A stretch of DNA of 38,776 bases, taken from contig CAIKXV010000101.1 of NCBI GenBank assembly GCA_903831455.1, positions 1 through 38,776 of the forward strand. Direction: 5' to 3'. This DNA comes from an uncultured Pseudomonadota bacterium. Its GTDB lineage: Bacteria > Pseudomonadota > Gammaproteobacteria > Burkholderiales > CAIKXV01. Position 1 is the first letter of the stretch; every line of letters starts with the position of its first letter. Position numbers and translations under genes: made by a program. This document shows positions 1,952 through 3,499 of this stretch, piece after piece. A model generated the notes under the pieces. The model was not told the origin of the DNA. It was given only the letters and a program-made list of their open reading frames with translations, and did not search any database.

Positions 1952-2380
1952 TCAGGCGCCTGCAGCGGGTTCGGCCGCGCGCGCGGGAGCGTCCCCGCGA
2001 TCGCTGCGCTCGCCTCGCTCGCCGCGATCGCGCCGCGGGCGATCCCGGCCTTCGGTCGGCTTGGGCTCGCGCATCATCGGCGAGGGCGCGGTGACCGCCT
2101 CGTCCATCTTGATGGTCATGTGGCGCAGGACCGCGTCGTTGAAGCGGAACGCGTGCTCGAGTTCGTCCAGGGTCGCCTGGTCGCACTCGATGTTCATCAG
2201 CACGTAGTGCGCCTTGTGCATCTTCTGGATCGGGAAGGCGAGCTGGCGACGGCCCCAGTCTTCCTTGCGATGGATGATGCCGCCGTGACCGGCGATCATG
2301 CCGGTGTAGCGCTCGACCATGCCGGGGACCTGTTCGCTCTGGTCCGGATGGACGATGAAAACGACTTCGTAGTGCCGCAT
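1952..2380 (-). CDS. rpsF: 30S ribosomal protein S6
   Basis: A 142-residue S6, the S18 partner on the small-subunit platform. The start [20 protein letters not shown] is diagnostic. ATG at 2380-2378 is preceded by AAAGGAG at ideal spacing, and an upstream in-frame extension to 2449 lacks family similarity. Residues about 1-100 form the ferredoxin-like fold, including [19 protein letters not shown]. The last 40 residues or so are a strongly charged Arg/Asp/Glu tail ([19 protein letters not shown]), then Ala/Pro. E. coli S6 has a short acidic tail modified by RimK; this tail is mixed in charge and lacks terminal Glu residues. First gene of the rpsF-priB-rpsR-rplI operon, behind a leader of about 330 nt. 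Confidence 0.98.
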
Positions 2381-2401
2381 CGATTCTCCTTTCGGTCGTC
2401 T

Positions 2402-2419
2402 CGGGCACCGTGGTGCCCG
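2402..2419 (-). promoter_or_regulatory. Hairpin just upstream of the rpsF ribosome binding site
   Basis: CGGGCACC and GGTGCCCG are exact reverse complements separated by two bases, so the real loop would be about four bases. It ends roughly a dozen bases before the rpsF Shine-Dalgarno. Many bacteria have an S6:S18-binding RNA element in the rpsF leader. Position and the nearby CACC/CCG-type sequence make this a candidate, but I cannot match the published consensus with certainty. Confidence 0.35.
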
Positions 2420-2588
2420 GGCCCCCCGGCTGCAACCCCGGTGGAGCAAGGACGCGCGCCGGCATGGGCTCCGCCGCGCGAATGGGTCCGCCTCCCGAAG
2501 GCGCGGACGCTACCGACAGGCCTGCAAGACGCCGCCTGCCCTCTCCAGGATCACCGCCCCCGCAACCGGCTCGCCGGTCGCGCTGTCC

Positions 2589-2681
2589 GGGCACGGGACC
2601 CGGGCACTTTGCCCGGGTACGGGACCCGGACGCTTTGCCCGGGCACGGGACCCGGACGCCTTGCCCGGGCACAGGGCACCC
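2589..2681. repeat. 26-bp tandem repeat, three full copies plus a partial
   Basis: Copies lie at 2589-2614, 2615-2640 and 2641-2666, with a degraded fourth from 2667. Each begins GGGCACGGGACCCGG (one copy has T for C at position 4) and ends CTTTGCCC or CCTTGCCC. Copies differ at only a few positions. In each, GGGCA at one end can pair with TGCCC at the other, so transcripts could form a row of small hairpins. The unit is not a multiple of three and lies outside any gene, between the rpsF operon promoter and the rpsF start. Confidence 0.85.
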
Positions 2682-2716
2682 AGGCCAATTCCGGGCGGTG
2701 TCCCGGAAAGCCGTCC

Positions 2717-2749: not shown

Positions 2750-3499
2750 TCAGGCTGCTGCGCAGGCCCGCTGCCGGCGCGCCTCGAACAGGCAGATGCC
2801 GGCCGCCACCGACACGTTCACGCTCTCCACCGTCCCGAGCATCGGGATCCGAACCCGGGCATCGCAGCGCTCGCGCGTGAGGCGGCGCAGGCCCGCGCCC
2901 TCCGCGCCGAGCACCCAGGCAAGCGGCCCCTGCAAGCGGGCCGAGAACAGGTCCTCCTCGCCCTCGCCGTCCGCAGCCACGCACCACACCCCCTTCTGCT
3001 GCAGCGCCTCGATGGTGCGCGCGAGGTTGGTCACCACCACGTAGCGCACGCTCTCCGCCGCGCCGGAGGCCACCTTCTCGACCGTAGCCCCGATGCCCAC
3101 GGCCCGGTCGCGCGGCGCGATCACCGCATCCACCCCCATCGCGTCGGCCACGCGCAGCAGGGCCCCGAGGTTGCGCGGGTCCTGGATGCCGTCGAGCAGC
3201 AGCAGCAACGGCAGCGGCGGCAGCGTCTCGAGCAGGTCGTCGAAGGCCAGCGCGCTGCGCGGCAGCACCCGAGCGACCGCGCCCTGGTGCCGCGACTGCG
3301 CACCGGCCAGCGCGTCGAGCCGTCGGTCGTCGCTGGCGATCACGCGCACGCCGCGCTCGCCGGCCAGCCGGAGCAGATCCTTCATCCTGCCGTCCTGGCG
3401 GGCGGCATCGACGTGCAGTTCACGCACCGAGGCGGGATCGGCACGCAGCCTCGCGGTGACCGCGTGCAGCCCGAACAGCACTCGCAGCGGCTCGCTCAT
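2750..3499 (-). CDS. rlmB: 23S rRNA (guanosine-2'-O-)-methyltransferase RlmB
   Basis: A SPOUT-class (TrmH/SpoU) methyltransferase that methylates the 2'-O of G2251 in the peptidyl-transferase loop of 23S rRNA, using S-adenosylmethionine. It has 249 residues, the usual length. An N-terminal substrate-binding domain (about 1-80) precedes the knotted catalytic domain with all three SpoU motifs: DGIQDPRNLGALLRVADAMG (103-122), WVLGAEGAGLRRL (195-207) and IPMLGTVESVNVSVAAGI (218-235). The ATG start shares bases with the rnr stop (ATGA at 3499-3496), so RlmB is probably translated by coupling to RNase R. The rnr-rlmB pairing is conserved across proteobacteria. Confidence 0.96.
   Translation of the reverse strand: MSEPLRVLFGLHAVTARLRADPASVRELHVDAARQDGRMKDLLRLAGERGVRVIASDDRRLDALAGAQSRHQGAVARVLPRSALAFDDLLETLPPLPLLLLLDGIQDPRNLGALLRVADAMGVDAVIAPRDRAVGIGATVEKVASGAAESVRYVVVTNLARTIEALQQKGVWCVAADGEGEEDLFSARLQGPLAWVLGAEGAGLRRLTRERCDARVRIPMLGTVESVNVSVAAGICLFEARRQRACAAA

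Follow-up and report, generated by a model that had tools for sequence, protein, structure and literature searches.

The rpsF leader of an uncultured Burkholderiales bacterium carries a conspicuous tandem array of 26-bp units, and it quite probably represents a lineage-private minisatellite that arose by local tandem duplication and folds on itself in the 5′ part of the leader, while the S6:S18 operator next to the start codon works independently and provides the usual autoregulation. The array was studied in a window consisting of the whole 38,776-nucleotide stretch of DNA from this organism.

An array of 26-bp units lies between the rpsF promoter and the rpsF start

Tandem Repeats Finder identified an array with a period of 26 bp, 3.6 copies and a score of 144 at positions 2587-2681 of the minus strand, in the predicted transcribed leader. 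The three full copies (2593-2618, 2619-2644 and 2645-2670) showed 3, 0 and 1 base differences, respectively, when compared to the middle copy. When 2000 dinucleotide shuffles of the region 2381-2749 were used as a control, 24 yielded any array with a score of at least 50 and the highest score was 92, showing that the tandem units of the array exceed chance expectation. These results bore out the array that a previous, sequence-only reading of this DNA had described between the promoter and rpsF, as well as its proposal that each copy pairs with itself, because single units in the RNA sense folded alone into hairpins of 8 or 9 pairs. The units are palindromic and imperfect inverted sequences flank the array. 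An open reading frame of 248 codons running across the array was dismissed, since 26 is not divisible by 3 and this reading frame overlaps rpsF in a different frame.

The gene downstream of the array, rpsF (1952-2380, minus strand; Pfam PF01250), encodes ribosomal protein S6 and is the first gene of a minus-strand operon that also comprises a gene for an SSB_1 protein (PF22657) at the priB position, rpsR (PF01084) and rplI (PF01281/PF03948). Immediately upstream of the rpsF leader is an rlmB-like gene for a SpoU rRNA methylase (2750-3499, minus strand; PF00588, PF08032). A search with the RlmB protein led to a betaproteobacterial neighbourhood, with 62% identity at the lowest E-value and a maximum of 64% among the best 80 of 144 matches.

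A consensus scan recovered the rpsF operon promoter, TTGCCC-N17-CATAAT, at positions 2745-2717 of the minus strand, exactly as the sequence-only reading had it. Upstream of rpsF, the pattern TTGCCN-N17-[CG]ATA[AC]T was found once per leader in all six genus relatives read, the scan itself having been applied to three of them. The -35 box of these relatives has the form TTGCC[CTGA] and the spacer is 17 nt, with a -10 box that reads CATAAT in G005, G009, G003 and G007, CATACT in G010 and GATACT in G008. Because the promoter recurs in six genus relatives and the array is located downstream of it, between 2717 and the rpsF start at 2380, the array is probably transcribed as part of the rpsF leader, in line with the earlier proposal. 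From the -10 box to the ATG we counted 336 nt, close to the 330 nt or so that had been estimated. No terminators were detected in the region 2300-2800, nor in the leaders of three relatives' loci (L007, L009 and L155).

The array is found in one genome and at one locus

When up to 3 mismatches were allowed, a sample of 399 genomes of the order and the set of 11 genus genomes each contained a single genome with the 26-mer, namely the one under study, and the matches in it fell only at this locus. The own genome contains three copies, all of them in the array. The own-genome, genus and order searches thus found the 26-mer at the rpsF locus only, which supports the sequence-only reading. One genome of the species entered the analysis (306 contigs; completeness 97.84), and no copy-number variant of the array was seen in it. 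Searching the genus with the leader gave weak matches, with a best E of about 0.001, that were interpreted as chance similarity of GC-rich sequence; one of them, C161, contains another array (L166).

We then compared leaders among six of the ten other genus genomes (G005, G009, G010, G003, G007 and G008). Outside this comparison were G001, G004 and G006, which lacked both an S6 match and a full-length RlmB match, and G002, which carries other sequence after rlmB and whose contig ends before any rpsF. The distance from the -10 box to the ATG was 119 nt in G005, 131 nt in G009, 164 nt in G010, 122 nt in G003, 119 nt in G007 and 205 nt in G008, and 336 nt in the window. The array was absent from the leaders of all six relatives, which keep both the promoter and the operator described below.

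An S6 match was obtained in 54 relatives, and the sequence upstream was read for 30 of them (29 loci and G007). When the 480 nt upstream of rpsF were compared between the window and the 30 relatives (31 stretches), two held an array with a score of at least 100: the window and G007. The G007 array (score 150) is made of a different unit, 37 bp in length and present in two copies without mismatch, and is situated upstream of its promoter. The arrays in the window and in G007 suggest that the gap preceding rpsF took up tandem duplications in two lineages. The gap upstream of the promoter also carries GGGGTCAGGTCTTG stretches in G007 (L155:54-533) and in G005 (L006, 480 nt upstream of rpsF). A literature search for tandem repeats in rpsF leaders found no paper.

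The genomic background of such arrays was estimated in an even sample of the own genome consisting of 40 contigs drawn by number, first 20 kb each (383,828 bases), which was the only sample used for the rate. Five arrays scored at least 100, with periods of 195, 207, 50, 31 and 1. The 50-bp array, beside a TctC-family gene, and the 31-bp array, between cupin and MmgE/PrpD genes, have units unlike the 26-mer and look intergenic when their ORF and Pfam context is considered, even with open frames crossing both. The 50-bp unit (L187:400-559, TctC-family gene alongside) is palindromic and present in 3.2 copies with 96% matches. A further sample of 318,895 bases, which is biased because its contigs were chosen for weak leader matches or RlmB-like hits, also contained an array of 28-bp units located at the end of a contig and preceding a RelA/SpoT gene (L170:1-219; 7.8 copies), an array of 25-bp units flanked by GST and ChaC genes, and two further arrays with a period that is a multiple of 3. 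In a 400,000-base sample of G010 there were three arrays, every period being a multiple of 3. A rough extrapolation from two arrays gives about 20 such arrays per genome. On the better strand, fold z-scores were -5.6 for the 50-bp array, -3.6 for the 28-bp array, -2.5 for the 25-bp array and -1.5 for the 31-bp array, and -4.2 for the array in the window, a spread indicating that not all such arrays are strong hairpins. A run of about 82 C residues at a contig end (L203:5681-5762) is probably a sequencing or assembly artefact.

A predicted S6:S18 operator adjoins the rpsF start codon

Directly before the start codon, relatives have in common the block CCTTG-CCTCACCGG...CCGGGAGG...CAAGGAG, which fits the published rpsF_leader. 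According to Babina et al. (2015; PMC4647458), E. coli rpsF is repressed at the level of translation by the S6:S18 complex through this element, whose H1 stem includes the Shine-Dalgarno (SD) sequence and whose protein site has two conserved cytosines. At gathering score, the sole Rfam match in the window was a tRNA, and Rfam gave no match for 2381-2456 or for eight relatives' loci (L007-L012, L014 and L015). Because Rfam was silent on these eight loci, we built our own covariance model, R1, with 28 of the 30 relatives; the window was excluded, and so were L027 and L034, in which the motif was not clear by eye. R1 matched the window at 2381-2456 of the minus strand with 33.9 bits and an E-value of 5.9e-7, the runner-up having 11.2 bits (E 0.33). 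In the own genome, where 150 of the 3563 candidates from the first look were scored, R1 had no match up to E 10 other than 2381-2456. None of the 12 R1 matches obtained up to E 10 with filters off fell within the array (2587-2681). When the Rfam threshold was lifted, the region 2300-2800 produced 19 matches up to E 10, which were read as chance matches to GC-rich palindromes; the best of them, mir-BART7, reached 27.4 bits where the gathering score is 70.

The written operator structure was 97.4% paired on the 28 relatives and 48.9-64.3% paired when slid along the alignment. Covariation analysis of the same relatives revealed 18 cells that change on both sides, compared to a mean of 4.4 in shuffled alignments, none of which (0 of 500) was as high. 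Three pairs showed two-sided change, a number equalled by 42 of 500 shuffles, and nine pair types were seen, equalled by 445 of 500. The element in the window, CCUU(G) / GCUCC-ACCGG...CCGG-GGGGC / AAGG, contains the inner operator stem with the conserved ACCG at the protein site, aligned as GCUCC-ACCGG...CCGG-GGGGC. In the outer stem, CCUU and AAGG can pair and the fifth pair is gone; its counterpart in the 28 relatives has no pair with two-sided change. The outer stem (H1) had a probability of at most 0.012 in all models folded and is not predicted in free RNA. The SD sequence AAAGGAG (2386-2392, minus strand) was assigned by its position and its alignment with the AGGAG of the relatives.

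Alignment and folding point to an extra hairpin, CGGGCACCACGGTGCCCG (2402-2419, minus strand), that separates the inner stem from the SD strand. The sequence-only reading had noticed a hairpin near the ribosome binding site, and this hairpin indeed exists, but rather than a separate element it is an extra stem inside the S6:S18 operator, which that reading had overlooked. G008 (L010:770-858) has a GC-rich insert at the same place of its rpsF operator.

As judged by the covariance model, the known S6:S18 operator is thus present at 2381-2456, apart from the array, and S6:S18 most likely binds to this predicted operator. Like the published rpsF_leader (PMC4647458), 2381-2456 directly precedes rpsF in an rpsF-priB-rpsR-rplI operon, with the SD sequence within the putative outer stem and conserved cytosines at the protein site; unlike it, the operator of the window has an additional 18-nt hairpin and has lost the fifth pair of the outer stem, and the array itself is separate from the element.

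The array is predicted to fold mostly on itself

The array and its borders (2585-2685) had a minimum free energy (MFE) of -68.8 kcal/mol and a z-score of -5.4, mostly by pairing neighbouring copies together. With another shuffle set, the array (2587-2681) gave z-scores of -3.4 for the transcribed strand and -4.2 for its complement. The whole leader (2711-2361) folded with a z-score of -3.44, and 1 of 100 shuffles was as good. Folding of the array better than that of shuffled sequence would be expected of palindromic repeats and equally of a selected structure.

In a model of the RNA from 2710 to 2321, 89% of the array pairing was internal and 0.003% involved the operator. The inner operator stem had a value of 0.5516 both with and without the array, and the SD sequence was unpaired at 0.513. 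Changing the number of array copies from 0 to 6 shifted the modelled operator and SD values by at most 0.0002. The array is enclosed by a predicted stem of 18 pairs, whose 5′ arm (2693-2710, minus strand) and 3′ arm (2541-2559, minus strand) pair in the MFE structure at 0-6 copies, and thus also when the array is removed. Stems of this length occurred in 13 of 300 shuffles, so that the enclosing stem by itself is weak evidence.

The position of the RNA 5′ end had a strong influence on these folds. The value of the inner operator stem was 0.55 with the full leader, 0.009 when the RNA started just past the array (a start that also deletes the 5′ arm of the enclosing stem), 0.42 when it started at 2500 and 0.18 at 2456. 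Independence of the operator would consequently hold only if transcription starts near 2710, and in these models an undisturbed operator hinges on the transcript start and the enclosing stem, not on the array. When the array was shuffled, none of 60 leaders was as stable as the real one; the operator stem averaged 0.44 and 8 of 60 reached the real value. This drop of the operator stem suggests that self-pairing of the array may be selected.

MFE folding of the 5′ segment in the relatives placed a stem at the same position in G005, G009, G010 and G007, a different stem covering the whole segment in G008, and none in G003. The array may have expanded within an ancestral 5′ stem-loop. In G005, G009, G010 and G007 (L006, L007, L008 and L155), the predicted stem just past the transcript start is formed by CUUGCCUG/CGGGCAAG and variants thereof.

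Discussion

According to the sequence-only reading, known S6:S18 leader elements are single structures and not tandem arrays. We infer that a GC-rich palindromic segment underwent local tandem duplication to give an array towards the 5′ end of the rpsF mRNA leader, that the units of this array fold mostly on themselves inside a 5′ domain closed by a stem, and that the array lacks a function of its own. Since its units would self-fold within the closed domain, the S6:S18 operator could work independently: S6:S18 would bind 2381-2456 and block translation in the usual way, and the array would be tolerated in the structured 5′ part of the leader. A regulatory role of the array, suggested by the sequence-only reading, is unsupported given a separate operator at 2381-2456, six relatives that lack the array and a copy number that is neutral from 0 to 6 in the model.

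As in bacterial minisatellites and VNTR loci, the tandem 26-bp units are intergenic, the unit is restricted to a single locus and the genome contains further arrays; unlike in these loci, the array is placed in the predicted mRNA leader of a ribosomal operon. Intergenic direct repeats of TAACTGA have been described in Beggiatoaceae, with 169 sets in one genome (PMC4679880). Those repeats resemble the present array in being direct repeats before genes, some of them in or near ribosomal protein operons, and differ from it in having 7-bp units at many loci, whereas the unit here is 26 bp long, palindromic and found at one locus.

5′ stems can protect mRNAs. The array might therefore be a functional 5′ stabiliser, a long self-paired domain that opposes mRNA decay from the 5′ end with a strength set by copy number. 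Such a role would agree with the stem predicted close to the transcript start both in the window and in five of six relatives (that of G008 being different and G003 having none) and with the modelled gain of about 16-23 kcal/mol per copy up to six copies. However, the enclosing stem forms without the array, its length is equalled in 13 of 300 shuffles and the relatives manage without the array, so that we regard stabilisation as improbable. Slightly more doubtful still is an extended version, in which a length-adjustable, self-insulating array within a 5′ segment that is closed by a stem and occupies a position common to the genus would set the stability of the rpsF operon mRNA while leaving the operator undisturbed.

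The sequence-only reading had proposed that operon expression could be switched or tuned in a phase-like manner as the array gains or loses copies. Such an action is described in PMC4679880 for Moraxella surface proteins, with tandem repeats in the interval from promoter to start codon. We consider this very unlikely for the rpsF operon, because the modelled pairing of the operator and the SD sequence did not respond to copy numbers of 0-6 and an essential operon would be an improbable target. Membership of a multicopy element (REP/BIME or MITE) that landed here, which the palindromic units and the imperfectly inverted flanks might evoke, is scarcely credible and was rejected, given that the region 2560-2720 produced one own-genome match at E 0.001 (40 of 76 first-look candidates scored) rather than many copies, and that the three 26-mers of the genome are all in this array, with none in the other genomes searched.

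If the array is, as we favour, a self-folding minisatellite private to this lineage, the leader of an essential operon can absorb a large GC-rich repeat and yet keep its promoter and its protein-binding operator. The present analysis also corrects a tempting misreading: the conspicuous repeat is unlikely to be the regulator, and the known regulatory element next to it had gone unnoticed.
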